A stretch of 52,397 nt of DNA, taken from Vicinamibacteria bacterium. GTDB lineage: Bacteria > Acidobacteriota > Vicinamibacteria > Fen-336. Of this stretch, positions 17,817-24,166 are shown piece after piece (positions within the stretch are counted from its first letter, which is position 1; every line of letters begins with the position of its first letter). The DNA lies in the NCBI GenBank assembly GCA_016934575.1, contig JAFGSN010000115.1:1-52397 (forward strand), written 5' to 3'. Both the position numbers and the translations under genes were made by a program. The notes under the pieces are model-generated. The model made no database searches, had not been told where the DNA came from, and was given only the letters and a program-made list of their open reading frames with translations.

Positions 17817-18077
17817 TCACTGAAAACGGCCGCGCGAGATCGCGGCTTCGACGGTGTGCAGCGCCTTATCCATCAATGAGCGCAGCTTCTGCTCCTGTTC
17901 TTCTCGCGGGAGACCTTGGGCCAGAAGCTCCTCGTACGAGACGCGCTTGTTGAGCAGCACCGTGCCGCCTTCGTAGACCCGCACTTCGAAACCGGCGTTC
18001 TCCAGACCCATGTCCTCGATTTGAAGATGATACTGCTTCCCCCCGTGCTCGAAGACGCGATTAAGGCCGATGATCAT
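17817..18077 (-). CDS. Small conserved-looking hypothetical protein
   Basis: The 86-residue product begins MIIGLNRVFEHGGKQYHLQI and continues with EVRVYEGGTVLLNKRVSYEELL, then a charged C-terminal helix ending VEAAISRGRFQ. It is predicted soluble, with no signal or membrane segment. It looks like a small beta-sheet protein with a helical tail, but I do not recognise a named family. ATG 18077 is preferred; a TTG at 18089 would add four residues. It is the last gene of the amidase-actin-NTPase group, 35 bases after the soluble NTPase gene. Confidence 0.7.
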   Translation of the reverse strand: MIIGLNRVFEHGGKQYHLQIEDMGLENAGFEVRVYEGGTVLLNKRVSYEELLAQGLPREEQEQKLRSLMDKALHTVEAAISRGRFQ

Positions 18078-18112
18078 GACCGCATGCAATCACGCGAAAC
18101 CGCATTCCGCTC

Positions 18113-19192
18113 TCACGATGGTCGCTTTTCCTGGAATGAAGATGGCCGCGCGCGCACAAGCCAGCGCTTGAAAAAGGAGTTGCCGATCCGATACTTGTCA
18201 TCGTCAAGCGCGAGGTATCCCATCGTACGAAGAGCAAAGAGGGCGAGGGCGAGGACTTCAGGATCGCGCGTCGCAGAAGCCGTGAGTTCTTGCCGCGTGA
18301 CCTGATCGAGGCGGGCGACTTCGGAGAGAATCTCCTGTTCGGCGGGATCGAGCGCCTGAAAATCGTTGGAGAAAAAGCTCGCGATCATCTCGTCCGCGGC
18401 AATTTGCTCGAGGGTCGTCGAGATGTCGGCGCCGTCATAGAGACGACTGGCCACGAGCTGAAGAAGAAAGGGATGGTTCGCGGTACGGTTCATGATTCTC
18501 CGCACCGTTTCCGGCGTGAAGTCGCCGCGGGCGAGCAGGGCAAGAGCCTCGTCGGGAGAGAACGGCGTGAGATAAACCGGGGGAGCGAAGCCTTGAAGGA
18601 AAGGTGAAGTGACGAAGTCCGTGCGCATGTCGATACGACCCAGGCGGCGAGTCGAAGTAAGAACCGTTCGTAACTCAGGGCCGCGATGAAAGATGCGTCG
18701 TAGACGCAGAAGCGCGCCGGAATCGTTGCGAGCGACGGTCAGGAATTCCTCCGCTTCGTCGAGAAGCAGGAGCAGGCGCCATCCGCTCCGAACCGTCTTG
18801 CGCACGAGCGTCGTCAGAAGATCGGTGACCGACAGTCCCTCCACCTCGTCAATCGAGAGATCGATAGAGCGGCGAAAGTTTTCACAGTCTTCGACGCTGG
18901 CGACGAGACTCTCGGCCAGGCCGCGAGGGTCGGCGCTGCCCTCGAGATCCCAGTAAAGCGGGACGAAGGGGCAGTGAGGACTGCGCTGGGCGCGATACTC
19001 GAGCTCTTTCAAAAGGCTCGTTTTACCGAGGCGTCTGGGGCCGACGACCCAGAGGGCGTCACGCGGCCCGTCGAAGATCTCGTTGATGATGCCGGACCGG
19101 CCGAAAAAGTGCTCGCCGCGAACCCAACTGCCGACGATGAAGGGGTTGCGCATGCGCGCGGGTCGGTGAAGATTCTGTGAGTGGGCTCTCAT
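18113..19192 (-). CDS. Soluble P-loop NTPase (AAA/STAND-like), paralogue of the next gene
   Basis: This 359-residue cytoplasmic protein is an archaeal-ATPase/STAND-like P-loop NTPase. It has an NPFIVGSWVRGEHFFGR entry motif near residue 16, Walker A GPRRLGKTS (51-59) and Walker B LLLLDEAEE (141-149), then STRR, a likely sensor region. After about residue 250 comes a helical and winged-helix-like region (LDPAEQEILSEVARL; ALFALRTMGYLALDDDKYRIG). The adjacent membrane NTPase shares the entry motif and the R-R/L-G-K-T-S loop. It starts seven bases after that gene's stop, with AGGA five bases before ATG, so the two are probably co-translated. Substrate and partner are unknown. Confidence 0.85.
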   Translation of the reverse strand: MRAHSQNLHRPARMRNPFIVGSWVRGEHFFGRSGIINEIFDGPRDALWVVGPRRLGKTSLLKELEYRAQRSPHCPFVPLYWDLEGSADPRGLAESLVASVEDCENFRRSIDLSIDEVEGLSVTDLLTTLVRKTVRSGWRLLLLLDEAEEFLTVARNDSGALLRLRRIFHRGPELRTVLTSTRRLGRIDMRTDFVTSPFLQGFAPPVYLTPFSPDEALALLARGDFTPETVRRIMNRTANHPFLLQLVASRLYDGADISTTLEQIAADEMIASFFSNDFQALDPAEQEILSEVARLDQVTRQELTASATRDPEVLALALFALRTMGYLALDDDKYRIGNSFFKRWLVRARPSSFQEKRPS

Positions 19193-19199
19193 GCCAATC

Positions 19200-21644
19200 C
19201 TAAGAGCTCCTAGTTTGCCACAAAAGAGGCGATTCCGGCTCAGTCAAACCGCCGCCGTCAGCCAAGGCGGTCAGGCTGTCGCGAACCGCCTCGACGTCAC
19301 TCGCGGTCACGATCGTGCGCCCGTCGTCGAGCATGCGATTCAGCGACTGGATGCAGAACTTCTGGATGAGATAGGGCTTGAGCTGGCTGTGATCGAGGAT
19401 CCTGTCGACAGCGTCGTTCTCGTAACGGAATACGTTCGCCACCGGATTGCGCACGAGGTCTCTGGCTTCCTCGTGAGTCAGCGGGGAGAGGTTGATTTGC
19501 TCGAAGAAATTGTACCAGGGGCTGCCCTCGCCGCGCCAGCCGCGCTTCAGGTCGACGCCGCTCATGACGGCGACGAGATGCTCGGAAAAAGTCTTCATGA
19601 ACGTGCTGCGGAACTGTTGATTCGTTCGCTCGGAGTAGTCGTTGAGAACGTCGACCTCGTCGATGAGCAGCACGAGGCGAACCTTCTTGACGCTGCGACG
19701 CTTGAGATCGGAGATGATTAGCTGCAGATCATGACCGAAATCGCGTCCCTCGTAGCGCTCCTGAGCATGATTGTGGCGAAGCTCGTCGCTTAACGCCGGG
19801 TCCGGCTTCAATTCCTCCAGTATGTCGCCCATCAACGCCTCGAAAAGCCCTGTTTCATTGACGCCCTGCAGGTCGGTAAAGACGGGGAAAAAGCGGTAGT
19901 CGGAACCGGAGTCGACTTCCAGGACGCGTTTGAGATGGTAGAGCAACGAGGTTTTGCCGATGCGCCTTTCGCCCGTGATCATCAGCGAGTTGTGAGGCAG
20001 AAGGCCGAGGATTCGCTCCACGAGCTTCTGGCGGCCGAAAAACATGTGATCGTTCATCACCGGCGCGCCCGCGATATAGGGATTGAAGCGGCTGCGAACG
20101 GCGTGCTTGCGGCGCACTCTCACGACGACGAGAATGACAAGCAGCACGGAGAGCGAGGATACGAGAGCCGACGGGAGAAACGCCTGCGTCTCGTGGAAAC
20201 GCAAGCGACGAGAGATTTGAAACGACTGCTCTTGCTCAACGCCCAGGATGTCTGTCGCACGGACACGGATCTCGTTGGGTCCCGGTGACAGGGCCAGTTC
20301 GCGTTTGAAAGGCATGTGGCGTTGCGGATCACCGCCGTCAAGGCGAGGGGGGATGACGTGCTCCGCAACGAGCTGAGAGGACAGATAGAACTCCAGCTTC
20401 GCCAGGCCGCGGTCGTCGGTGGCCACGCCCTCGATCGTCGCCGTCGGCTTCGTGATCTCGGCACTTGTTTCTTGCGGCTGGAAAAAGGTGAGCACGGGCG
20501 CTTGATTCGGGCGCCATTTCTCGAAAAGCGTCTGTTCGCTCATACGTTCCGCGTAAGCGGCGCGCTCGATCGCCCGGGCGTGCGTCGCGTCCAGCTCGAG
20601 GACGTTCTGGAACTGGACCCGGGCCGCATCGGGCTTATTCAGTGACAGCAGGCGCTCACCGGCGTCCATGCGGCGCTCGATCTCCATTCGGATGTCGCGC
20701 TGGCGTCGAAGGCGCGCCACCGCCTTCTGCGCGCGATCCAGGAGAGCCTTGGCGTCTTCGTTGGAAGCGTCAGCGGCCGCTTCGGCGAGATGGTCCAGGG
20801 CCTCTTCATAGCGACCGCCGTCAACCAAAGCTTTGCCGCGTTCGAAGGATTCCCGACGTTGCTGGCGGGTCGTTCGGACAAGGATGCGATCGCTCGCCTC
20901 GCGCTTGCCTTCCGAGGCCGGCTGGTTGGTAGGATCGAGCCTCAGAACGCCGTCAAACTGAACGATCGCCTCCTTGTCTTGGCCGGATTCCTGCAGACGA
21001 TGCCCCTCCTCCAGCATCTGGTCGATCTGGCGGCGCCGCGCCTCGCTCTGATCCTGTCTCGTCTTAAGTTCTCTGTAATCGGAGATACGATCGGCGATCA
21101 TCCGCTGCGTTAGCGGGTCGAGCGCGCTCGATGCTTGTTCGGCCTCGGCCAGCAGAATGAGCGCTTCCTCGTATCGACGCGCTCGCGCCAGGGCGGTGCT
21201 CCTCTTCGTCAAGGCGTCGACCTTCTCTCTCGCGCGCTGGACGAAGATTTGTCGCTCGAGACGATCGATCTCGCTTTGCGCCTCTTTTCGTCGTTCCTGC
21301 AAGTCGTGAAAAAGCCGCGACCGCTGCCGGATGAATCCCAGAGATTCTTCCTTGTCGAAGCTGGTCACGGCGTTCTGGTAATCGCCCATTCGATGGTGGC
21401 AAAGGCCCAGATAGTAGTACGGCAGGTAATCGATGAACTGAAGGCCATAGGTTTGTTCGCCCAACGCGGACATGGGCTTGATCCGGACGGCTTCGTTCAG
21501 GCTGCGCAGGGCGGCGGTGTATCGGAAAGCCTTGAATTGCCGCTGCGCCGACAGATAATGCTCGTACCATTCTTGAGCGCAGACGCCTTCACGCGGCGCG
21601 ACGAGAAAGACGAACAGCATGAAAAGAAAAAGACGGCGTCTCAT
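19200..21644 (-). CDS. Transmembrane TPR/Ig-like sensor with cytoplasmic P-loop NTPase
   Basis: The 814-residue protein has a signal peptide (1-23, ending GVCA), TPR-like repeats (about 25-110, 205-245, 265-300, 320-365) with a coiled-coil stretch (110-200), and an Ig-like beta domain (385-480, with PTATIEGVATDDRGLAKLEF and SPGPNEIRVRATD). One membrane helix (about 491-510) leads to an NTPase domain: NPYIAGAPVMNDHMFFGR, Walker A GERRIGKTS (558-566), Walker B VLLIDEVD (658-665). The predicted topology puts TPR and Ig modules in the periplasm and the ATPase in the cytoplasm. That suggests a sensor that transmits an envelope state. The role is inferred; I know no named family with this order. 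Confidence 0.85.
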   Translation of the reverse strand: MRRRLFLFMLFVFLVAPREGVCAQEWYEHYLSAQRQFKAFRYTAALRSLNEAVRIKPMSALGEQTYGLQFIDYLPYYYLGLCHHRMGDYQNAVTSFDKEESLGFIRQRSRLFHDLQERRKEAQSEIDRLERQIFVQRAREKVDALTKRSTALARARRYEEALILLAEAEQASSALDPLTQRMIADRISDYRELKTRQDQSEARRRQIDQMLEEGHRLQESGQDKEAIVQFDGVLRLDPTNQPASEGKREASDRILVRTTRQQRRESFERGKALVDGGRYEEALDHLAEAAADASNEDAKALLDRAQKAVARLRRQRDIRMEIERRMDAGERLLSLNKPDAARVQFQNVLELDATHARAIERAAYAERMSEQTLFEKWRPNQAPVLTFFQPQETSAEITKPTATIEGVATDDRGLAKLEFYLSSQLVAEHVIPPRLDGGDPQRHMPFKRELALSPGPNEIRVRATDILGVEQEQSFQISRRLRFHETQAFLPSALVSSLSVLLVILVVVRVRRKHAVRSRFNPYIAGAPVMNDHMFFGRQKLVERILGLLPHNSLMITGERRIGKTSLLYHLKRVLEVDSGSDYRFFPVFTDLQGVNETGLFEALMGDILEELKPDPALSDELRHNHAQERYEGRDFGHDLQLIISDLKRRSVKKVRLVLLIDEVDVLNDYSERTNQQFRSTFMKTFSEHLVAVMSGVDLKRGWRGEGSPWYNFFEQINLSPLTHEEARDLVRNPVANVFRYENDAVDRILDHSQLKPYLIQKFCIQSLNRMLDDGRTIVTASDVEAVRDSLTALADGGGLTEPESPLLWQTRSS

Positions 21645-21718
21645 GTCCGTGACAGTCTAGCACTCTGGAAGCGCGGGAAAAACGAGAAGCCGCGAATTTC
21701 GCGGTCTATTCCGTAAGA

Positions 21719-22771
21719 TCAGCGCTCGTACATGGCGGCGATCAGAGCGCCGCGCGCGGTCGCGGTCAAGGGATCCCGGGCCAATCGCACCTCCGAAATC
21801 GGCATTGGCAGGGGCCGGGTATTGAGCGTTTTCTCGAACAGGTCCTTGAATCCGCGCGGACGGGAGGTTCCTCCGGAGAGCACGATCGGCATCGGACGCT
21901 CGCTCTTGCGCTCGGACTTGACGATTCGCTGACGAAGAGTCTCGACGAGCGTTTCTACGAGATCCTGGTAATAGATATGCAGCGCCCGGTCGAATTTGTC
22001 GCGAGGCGGGCGCGAGAGATCCAGGTTCTCCTCCTTGACGATCTTGACGCGAGTGGCGTGCTCATTGACCACCATTCCGACCGAGTGATCGATATAATCG
22101 CCGGCCTTCGGGATCGCGAACATGATGAAGGGGATCGAGAGATGAGCCAGCGTCACGTTCGTCATGCCGCCGCCGCACGAGATGCCTATTCCCGTGAAGT
22201 TGTGGTCTTCGAGCTCGGAAAAAATCACGGCGACGCCTTCGTTGATCGGACGCGCCGTGTAGCCCAACGATTCGAAGTACTGGCGAAGCATGGCTTCGTG
22301 GTAGGTGAGCGCCGCCTCGCGATCCTCGCCCGCCGGAACGGAGAAGGCCATGATTTCGCCTTGTGTGCGCGGCTTGGGCACCAGGCCGCCCAGAATGGCT
22401 TCCAGCACCGGCATCGCCAGCTTTTCCTTGGGATTGACCATGCCGTCGGCCATGGGGCGGCGCGTCTCGGCGTTGAAAAGGTTGGCGAAGCGCTCGGCGG
22501 CCGTGCCGTAAACGATAAGATCGTCGTCTTCGCGGTAATGGGCGATGGCGTTCTGGGTTAGCGTGGATTCAGTGAAACGCGAATAGGGGACCGGGATGAA
22601 CGCGTTGATCTGGGCGCTGGTGTCCACATCCTTCGTGCGTCGCAGCGCGACGACGATCTTGCTCGTGCCGACGTCGACGCCGACCGGGGAAGTCGCCGTC
22701 TTAACCAGATCCTCGATGCGCTCCTCGGCGTCGAGGGCCACCTTCCAGAGATGATCCTTTCGTTCTTCCAT
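21719..22771 (-). CDS. Actin-like ATPase (MreB/FtsA superfamily), unassigned
   Basis: The 350-residue protein has the actin-fold ATP site: phosphate-1 loop VGVDVGTSKIVVALR (about 33-47), phosphate-2 loop GIGISCGGGMTNVTLA (about 196-211) and adenosine loop PIVLSGGTSRPRGF near residue 297. The end, DPLTATARGALIAAMYE, resembles MreB. Length fits MreB, but the P1 loop reads more like FtsA/PilM, and I cannot assign it to MreB, FtsA, ParM or MamK. GGAGG lies seven bases before ATG. It is 12 bases after the amidase gene. A cytoskeletal or regulatory partner of the amidase is a reasonable inference. Confidence 0.85.
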   Translation of the reverse strand: MEERKDHLWKVALDAEERIEDLVKTATSPVGVDVGTSKIVVALRRTKDVDTSAQINAFIPVPYSRFTESTLTQNAIAHYREDDDLIVYGTAAERFANLFNAETRRPMADGMVNPKEKLAMPVLEAILGGLVPKPRTQGEIMAFSVPAGEDREAALTYHEAMLRQYFESLGYTARPINEGVAVIFSELEDHNFTGIGISCGGGMTNVTLAHLSIPFIMFAIPKAGDYIDHSVGMVVNEHATRVKIVKEENLDLSRPPRDKFDRALHIYYQDLVETLVETLRQRIVKSERKSERPMPIVLSGGTSRPRGFKDLFEKTLNTRPLPMPISEVRLARDPLTATARGALIAAMYER

Positions 22772-22783
22772 GCACGATCCTCC

Positions 22784-24166
22784 TCACGAGCCGCCGCGGG
22801 CGGCCCGTCGTGTCGAATGCGGGGGTTGATTGTCGTTCGGCACATGTTGAGACAGCCACTCATCGTAGCGCGCCTGCTTCTCCATTCGCAAAGCCGTGAG
22901 CGAGATGCCGCGTCGGGCGGCCTCGGCCGCGAGAAAGCGCTCGGCCGTTCTGATGCCCGGCCAAGGTTCCACTACTTCATTCAAGAAATGATCGTCGTAA
23001 TCGAACCCGAAGACGGCGATGCTCGGCGGAGGCCTGCGATACTGATCCGGCAGACCGAGCGCGTCAAAGGGAAGGCCGCGGGCCCAGTCGAGGTGGTGCC
23101 CGATGAGGTGGCGCGTCGGGTTGACGCTCGCCATACCGTGGCCGGCGCACATTTCGGGGGCGATTCCATAACGAAATCGCAGACAGTCCGTCAGGCTTCG
23201 CGCCGTCGTGATCTGCGCCGTCGTGATCGGCAGCGACACGCCGCCTTCCCATCGACTCTCGAAGCAGATGCCGATGAAAGGATGGTTCAGGTTCAAATAG
23301 TAGCGGCCGTTGTGTCCCCAGATCGAGTGGCCCGAGTGGTTCGCCTTGCAGTGCTCCTCGACGACGCGAAAGCTCCGGCCGAAACGATCGATGACGTAGT
23401 TGTACAGCCGCCGCCGGCGGATGTATCGGATGAGTCGGTCGCTGCTATCACGCAGACGCTCGTTGAAAGAAGCCTCGAGCGGCCAGATATCGCTCTCGGA
23501 AGTATGGTAGAGAATTCCGACGGGCGCATGATGGATTTCCTCCAGTCGTCCGGTGTCGTCGAAGACGTGGAAGCGCCTGGGATCGCCCGGAACGGAGTAG
23601 CGAGTGTCGATGCGAAGACCGTTGCTGTATTGCTCCCAGTCCTTTCCGCGCTCGACGAGCCAGACGGAAGGCGGCGGGGAACAACGTGGGGTCGCGGCCG
23701 GCGGATCGAGCCGGAGAGAGCGCGCGGGTGCGCTTTCTCGGGCAAGCGCGTCCGAAGGCTGGGACGTCATTCGCGCGGACAGCGACGGGATCATGACCAG
23801 AATGGCGATCGACGACGCCGTGATTCCACACAAGATGAGCGACGATGCAAGACCCGACCAGAAGCGCCCCAGCCAGAGAGCTCGACGCAAATGGGCGCGA
23901 TGATATGGGGACAGGGTGCGTGCGTCGGCGTAAGAACGGAAGCGCTCGAGGCTCAGCCAGCGATAGGCCGCGCGCCGTATGACGGCCAAAGGGATCCAAT
24001 CCACGCGACGTCGGAGGCTTTCGTACTGAGCCAGCGATTCGCGGAGGAACTGAAGCTTGACAACCGGGTTGCGTATCGAGGACCCGATGATTTCGAGCGC
24101 GCGTTCGAATTCGCGCAGCCTTGTTTTCTGAAGAAGTTCCGCCCTGGACAGGTGATTCGTTTTCAT
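22784..24166 (-). CDS. Membrane-anchored N-acetylmuramoyl-L-alanine amidase (amidase_2/PGRP fold)
   Basis: The 460-residue protein (from ATG 24166) has a charged cytoplasmic region of about 100 residues, one membrane helix (about 104-127: SLILCGITASSIAILVMI), and a periplasmic amidase_2 domain (about 212-366). Zinc-site candidates are the histidine in GILYHTSES (221) and those in IGHHLDWARG (357-358), whose context resembles T7 lysozyme and PGRP amidases. The predicted reaction is cleavage of the bond between MurNAc and the stem peptide. An open frame runs up to 24298, but the added residues are proline-rich and unlike coding sequence. It leads the group with the actin-like and NTPase genes. 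Confidence 0.85.
   Translation of the reverse strand: MKTNHLSRAELLQKTRLREFERALEIIGSSIRNPVVKLQFLRESLAQYESLRRRVDWIPLAVIRRAAYRWLSLERFRSYADARTLSPYHRAHLRRALWLGRFWSGLASSLILCGITASSIAILVMIPSLSARMTSQPSDALARESAPARSLRLDPPAATPRCSPPPSVWLVERGKDWEQYSNGLRIDTRYSVPGDPRRFHVFDDTGRLEEIHHAPVGILYHTSESDIWPLEASFNERLRDSSDRLIRYIRRRRLYNYVIDRFGRSFRVVEEHCKANHSGHSIWGHNGRYYLNLNHPFIGICFESRWEGGVSLPITTAQITTARSLTDCLRFRYGIAPEMCAGHGMASVNPTRHLIGHHLDWARGLPFDALGLPDQYRRPPPSIAVFGFDYDDHFLNEVVEPWPGIRTAERFLAAEAARRGISLTALRMEKQARYDEWLSQHVPNDNQPPHSTRRAARGGS

Follow-up and report, generated by a model that had tools for sequence, protein, structure and literature searches.

The window analyzed here is a stretch of 52,397 nucleotides from a member of the Acidobacteriota, whose genome (G000) comprises 4.0 Mb in 247 contigs and whose closest named relatives are Acidobacteria/Vicinamibacteria MAGs. 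Positions 17817 to 24166 hold five open reading frames (ORFs), all on the minus strand and separated by successive gaps of 12, 74, 7, and 35 bases, which is the arrangement given in the original prediction. The genes and the features within them are as follows.

22784..24166, minus strand: bitopic peptidoglycan amidase of the Amidase_2 family, 460 amino acids (ORF and profile match)
24032..24073, minus strand: candidate actin-docking motif, amidase residues 32 to 45, RNPVVKLQFLRESL, consensus DPVxRLRFLR (alignment and motif count)
23789..23845, minus strand: predicted transmembrane segment of the amidase, residues ~108 to 126 (topology and structure prediction; charges favor N-in)
22847..23674, minus strand: catalytic domain of the amidase, with invariant H221, E303, H343, H358, and D360 (profile, alignment, and fold)
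21719..22771, minus strand: Volactin-family actin-like ATPase, 350 amino acids (PF25216, 3.2e-79; structure model; fold matches)
21690..21704, minus strand: hairpin and T-rich tail in the actin/TPR gap, which might be a terminator or attenuator between two modules
19200..21644, minus strand: transmembrane TPR/NTPase, 814 amino acids, accessory module (ORF and domain matches)
18113..19192, minus strand: soluble P-loop NTPase, 359 amino acids, accessory module (ORF and domain matches; paralogue of the NTPase domain of the 814-residue protein)
17817..18077, minus strand: protein with a RomY N-terminal domain, 86 amino acids, accessory module (NCBIfam RomY_Nterm)

A reading of the locus as a defense system was rejected, since PADLOC gave no meaningful match.

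The product of the second gene matched the Pfam family Volactin (PF25216) at 267 bits (cut-off, 35 bits; E = 3.2e-79) over residues 30 to 346, and a Haloferax volcanii control sequence also scored above the cut-off of this profile. The namesake of the family is the H. volcanii volactin, an actin of cell shape that forms dynamic filaments in vivo (PMC10869688), and no description of the family outside the haloarchaea was found in the open-access literature. A profile search of the window genome detected this single volactin. The predicted structure had a mean pLDDT of 85.8 (20 sequences in the alignment), and the solved folds that matched it best were those of MreB, BeeR, and MamK, with a weaker match to an EutJ structure. 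Residues D33, G35, T36, G200 to G202, G300, and G301, in the expected nucleotide-binding loops, were invariant in the alignment. Both the profile score and the actin fold thus bear out the earlier assignment of this gene to an actin-like ATPase. Based on its fold and family, the protein is expected to assemble into filaments in an ATP-dependent manner, with the qualification that not all superfamily members make long filaments and that EutJ-like and FtsA-like proteins need not do so. Its identification as MreB was rejected, given its score of 17.2 bits against MreB_Mbl (cut-off, 27 bits) and the presence of a separate, canonical MreB on contig C117 (1e-146), as were its identification as FtsA (TIGR01174, 16.3 versus 175.85 bits) and as MamK (NF040964, 31.3 versus 400 bits). 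Weak family-model matches were obtained to FtsA and EutJ. Because the organism has its own separate MreB, the concern that the actin might be its sole ordinary MreB does not apply. The genome also encodes a second, divergent MreB-like protein (L028, G000:C29:38761-39699; 201 bits) besides the canonical one.

The product of the first gene matched Amidase_2 (PF01510) at 43.6 bits (cut-off, 26 bits; E = 4.6e-11) and failed the cut-off of the AmpD equivalog NF008758 (22.5 versus 143 bits). Its predicted structure runs from a helical cytoplasmic part through a transmembrane helix and a disordered linker to a domain like that of AmpD and AmiD. The catalytic positions were invariant across 28 aligned sequences from both Acidobacteriota and Desulfobacterota; H343 and E303 align with AmiD, and D360 may serve as a metal ligand. 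Full-length amidases have a single transmembrane segment after approximately 100 residues, and the charges that flank it favor a cytoplasmic N terminus in 58 of 74 amidases. The description of the window protein as a single-pass amidase with a cytoplasmic region of about 100 residues therefore stands, with Amidase_2 over its cut-off and one transmembrane segment predicted at residues ~108 to 126. The cytoplasmic part of these amidases is variable apart from one motif, DPVxRLRFLR, which was found in 69 of 73 sequences, compared to 0.57 expected after shuffling; the four sequences that did not match include one near match (L045) and one that is cut off (L047). Residues P34 and L38 of the motif were invariant (alignment A2), and the amidases of Bryobacterales have kept the motif in a shorter tail. 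This conservation suggests that DPVxRLRFLR is a candidate actin-docking helix.

Gene order was compared at 81 loci, mostly from MAGs, made up of the window and the best 80 of 153 hits obtained with the actin as the query, a selection that favors close relatives. The amidase and actin genes were adjacent and on the same strand at 77 of the 81 loci, in both Acidobacteriota and Desulfobacterota, far more often than chance would give. The amidase gene came first in 60 of these pairs and the actin gene in 17, the latter order being that of the Desulfobacterota and of a group with duplicated actins. Many of the loci have a start/stop overlap (-4) or a very short gap between the two genes. At all four loci where the genes were not adjacent (L052, L053, L054, and L106), the amidase was encoded elsewhere in the genome, and in genome G299 both genes were present on different contigs. 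The retained adjacency of the pair, seen in many Acidobacteria as well as in some Desulfobacterota, suggests guidance of the enzyme's cutting site by an internal filament. Two tandem volactin genes, whose products form separate groups in the actin tree, precede the amidase gene at L051, L057, and L061 and in their relatives L017 to L026. In a MAG labeled Acidimicrobiia (L097), the amidase-actin pair groups with sequences of Terriglobia/Bryobacterales, reflecting either transfer or misbinning.

The co-occurrence of the two genes was scored over 297 evenly drawn Acidobacteriota genomes, with volactins counted when over the cut-off and amidases when E was <1e-80. Volactin was present in 17 genomes and the amidase in 14; 13 genomes had both, four had the actin only, and in one the amidase was present without the actin, at the edge of a contig (Fisher P = 2e-18, uncorrected for relatedness). 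Among 297 Desulfobacterota genomes, nine had a strong volactin, and the amidase was found only in G329. The eight other Desulfobacterota volactins sit in a non-amidase actin clade, where they group with the divergent actins of the four actin-only Acidobacteriota (support, 81/96; this split alone was used from a tree that has weak forks in places and includes L036_1_1887, a spurious shadow ORF). Since the actin-only genomes fall in this separate clade, the amidase goes with one bacterial volactin clade and not with the whole family. The link between amidase and actin is thus upheld by a gene order conserved in two phyla, co-occurrence when unlinked, a conserved tail motif, and an actin that is neither MreB nor FtsA. 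In the non-amidase clade, one volactin with a fused response-regulator domain adjoins a ParA-like gene (L171:9250-10941), and another adjoins ParA and ParB (L207:9442-10584), which suggests a DNA-segregation role for that clade.

In many Blastocatellia (20 loci), the gene directly upstream of the pair encodes a SPOR protein with a zinc-ribbon-like start, a transmembrane segment, and the SPOR domain, and at four Desulfobacterota loci, an AMIN-domain protein is encoded directly downstream of the pair. Denuded glycan is the ligand of SPOR domains, and AMIN domains target division amidases. These neighbors in other lineages therefore favor the division site as the place where the pair acts. At nine Blastocatellia loci (L052, L053, L054, L056, L058, L064, L070, L072, and L084), an HU-like domain lies in frame and N-terminal to the actin, as called by PF00216 in L053 (1.2e-12) and by sequence similarity in the other eight. 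A GGAGG sequence is found just upstream of an in-frame ATG at the HU/actin junction in nine of nine cases, compared to 1 case among the 97 remaining in-frame ATGs of these genes. In the simplest reading, each such locus is likely to be one gene with two starts, giving both an HU-actin protein and the actin alone.

The 814-residue protein encoded after the actin is predicted to have a signal peptide, a periplasmic TPR and Ig-like region, a transmembrane segment, and a cytoplasmic P-loop NTPase. The original prediction had called it a TPR/Ig-like NTPase, of which the TPR part was supported by a profile (TPR_2, 5.9e-15), whereas the matches to the Ig-like Big_7 (18.4 versus 24.1 bits) and to ATPase_2 and AAA_16 (27 versus ~33 bits) were below their cut-offs. 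The soluble NTPase that had been proposed for the next gene scored above the cut-off of AAA_22 (31 versus 27 bits). The small protein, which had been left unnamed, is 86 residues long and passes RomY_Nterm (59.3 versus 50 bits); it is a paralogue of a canonical RomY encoded on contig C88. Roadblock proteins are also encoded in the window genome, and at one locus (L213, G000:C131), an MglB-like roadblock gene precedes one for an MglA-like GTPase. Together with the canonical RomY, this MglB-MglA pair makes it seem that the organism has a polarity module.

Within the window's family, both NTPase genes follow the amidase-actin pair wherever the contig allows, as does the RomY paralogue in most cases (it was not found at L044 and L045). 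The three-gene module of the sister family (L040 and L043) is on the opposite strand and a few kb away, and three other Acidobacteriota families (L228, L229, L230, and L231) have an NTPase pair unaccompanied by actin or amidase. A Pfam Toluene_X (FadL/TodX-type) outer-membrane gene lies immediately before the NTPase pair at L229 and L231, and ORFs like the FadL/TodX type are near it at L228 and L230. This free-standing combination of TPR-NTPase and soluble NTPase is a separate envelope module. Hairpins of varied strength could also be discerned in the actin/TPR gap of L035, L036, and L042. Because the three genes are on the other strand in the sister family and the NTPase pair is found elsewhere without the core pair, we consider the NTPases and the RomY paralogue to be an accessory, separable, lineage-specific module. 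The proposed single five-gene system is not supported, since it is only in the window's family that the NTPases and the RomY paralogue go along with the pair, the modules being separate elsewhere. When the neighborhood of the 814-residue protein and the actin was followed across genomes, as had been suggested, it was the amidase-actin pair that remained together, and the 814-residue gene followed it only in the window's family. The core of the system is the amidase-actin pair, the half of the earlier interpretation that is strongly supported, and not the full five-gene set. The canonical RomY and the MglB-MglA pair make a link to polarity possible, and we tentatively suggest that the accessory module probably either regulates the pair or ties it to the MglA/MglB polarity system.

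Taken together, these results make it probable that the amidase and the actin are a cytoskeleton-guided wall-cutting pair. The actin, judging from its fold and family, would assemble ATP-dependent filaments in the cytoplasm. The amidase, predicted to span the inner membrane once, would present to them a cytoplasmic tail carrying the short helix DPVxRLRFLR, whose conservation suggests that it docks on the actin. Docking would concentrate, and probably switch, the periplasmic amidase at chosen sites, where the enzyme would strip stem peptides off glycan strands. The domains of the neighboring proteins suggest that these sites would most likely be the division septum or others at which denuded glycan is needed. 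A more speculative version, to which we give rather little credence, is that a second bacterial actin system, other than MreB or FtsA, directly holds and switches the amidase by way of its tail helix. In some Blastocatellia, the actin gene would also give an HU form from an upstream start, and one filament might then link wall cutting to the nucleoid, so that, for example, daughter cells would separate only once the chromosomes had cleared.

Several other explanations were weighed against a wall-cutting pair acting at division. The pair might instead shape the growing cell, with filaments positioning the amidase along the side wall or at a growth zone, as BacA does with LmdC; this is a serious alternative, although not one we think probable. 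The BacA-LmdC layout is equal, with a polymer, a bitopic hydrolase carrying a conserved cytoplasmic motif, and overlapping genes (PMC10945521), and Haloferax volactin acts in cell shape (PMC10869688), but the SPOR and AMIN neighbors point more to denuded glycan and division than to side-wall growth, and the removal of whole stem peptides by an amidase suits separation better than insertion. It is unlikely that the actin is a non-polymerizing ATP switch of the FtsA or EutJ kind that toggles the amidase via its tail and provides no scaffold. The best fold matches of the actin are the filament formers MreB, BeeR, and MamK, and Haloferax volactin makes dynamic filaments in vivo (PMC10869688), which argues against such a switch despite the weak matches to the FtsA and EutJ families and to the EutJ structure.

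We also find it distinctly unlikely that the operon is a device for polarity or surface motility, in which the RomY paralogue joins MglA/MglB to the pair and one pole of the cell has its wall opened to accommodate pili or gliding machinery. Such a role would fit the RomY_Nterm score and the canonical RomY, roadblock proteins, and MglB-MglA pair of this genome, yet RomY with the NTPase module is confined to the window's and sister families and does not go with the core pair in other lineages. AmpD and similar Amidase_2 enzymes work in recycling, and the catalytic domain here matches the same family, PF01510. The amidase could on that basis be one that merely recycles or trims peptidoglycan, its gene being next to that of the actin by descent only, but the existence of two gene orders in two phyla, the joint retention of the genes when unlinked, and the conserved cytoplasmic motif make this highly improbable.

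A cytoskeleton-guided amidase would connect an actin to an amidase, paralleling the link between bactofilin and endopeptidase, in a phylum in which the machinery of division and cell shape has received little study. It would also be relevant to how bacteria keep dangerous amidases in check; in Escherichia coli, this control is exerted through FtsEX-EnvC and NlpD. Haloferax volcanii has no peptidoglycan, and the pair would give a peptidoglycan-tied bacterial role to an actin family known from archaea without this polymer. Sharp tests are possible, involving one ten-residue motif, one enzyme, and one filament.

Compared to known systems, the pair resembles MreB-RodZ in having an actin fold and a bitopic membrane partner with a cytoplasmic part, but this actin fails MreB_Mbl in a genome with its own MreB, and its partner is an enzyme. 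The amidase shares its catalytic fold and conserved Zn/catalytic positions with AmpD, AmiD, and AmpDh2/3, from which it differs in being membrane anchored, in its conserved cytoplasmic tail, and in scoring far under the AmpD equivalog cut-off. The 86-residue protein passes RomY_Nterm, as in the Myxococcus RomY/MglB/MglA system (PMC9481161), but it is a paralogue whose gene neighbors those of the NTPases, actin, and amidase, with the canonical RomY elsewhere in the genome. BeeR of Verrucomicrobiota (PMC11929497) is also a bacterial actin, one whose N-terminal extension is poorly ordered, and is similar by fold alone (TM, 0.72); the paper describes it as closest to MamK and of unknown function and reports no pairing with an amidase. 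The volactin of H. volcanii (PMC10869688) belongs to the same Pfam family, PF25216, well over the cut-off, whereas here the actin is bacterial and is paired with a wall amidase. In the open-access literature on actin-amidase pairs, the only precedent found was that of a bactofilin with an M23 peptidase, BacA and the endopeptidase LmdC of Hyphomonas and Rhodospirillum (PMC10945521), in which a motif in the cytoplasmic tail recruits the wall hydrolase to the polymer. This nearest experimental precedent has in common with the present pair the side-by-side encoding of a cytoskeletal protein and a bitopic hydrolase, their widespread pairing, and a conserved motif in the hydrolase's cytoplasmic tail. 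The motif is helical in the present amidase and a beta-hairpin in LmdC, and an actin and an Amidase_2 amidase, with no homology to the proteins of the other system, take the place of the bactofilin and the M23 peptidase. Since both of its proteins are from other families, the amidase-actin pair would work like bactofilin-LmdC without being a member of that system.
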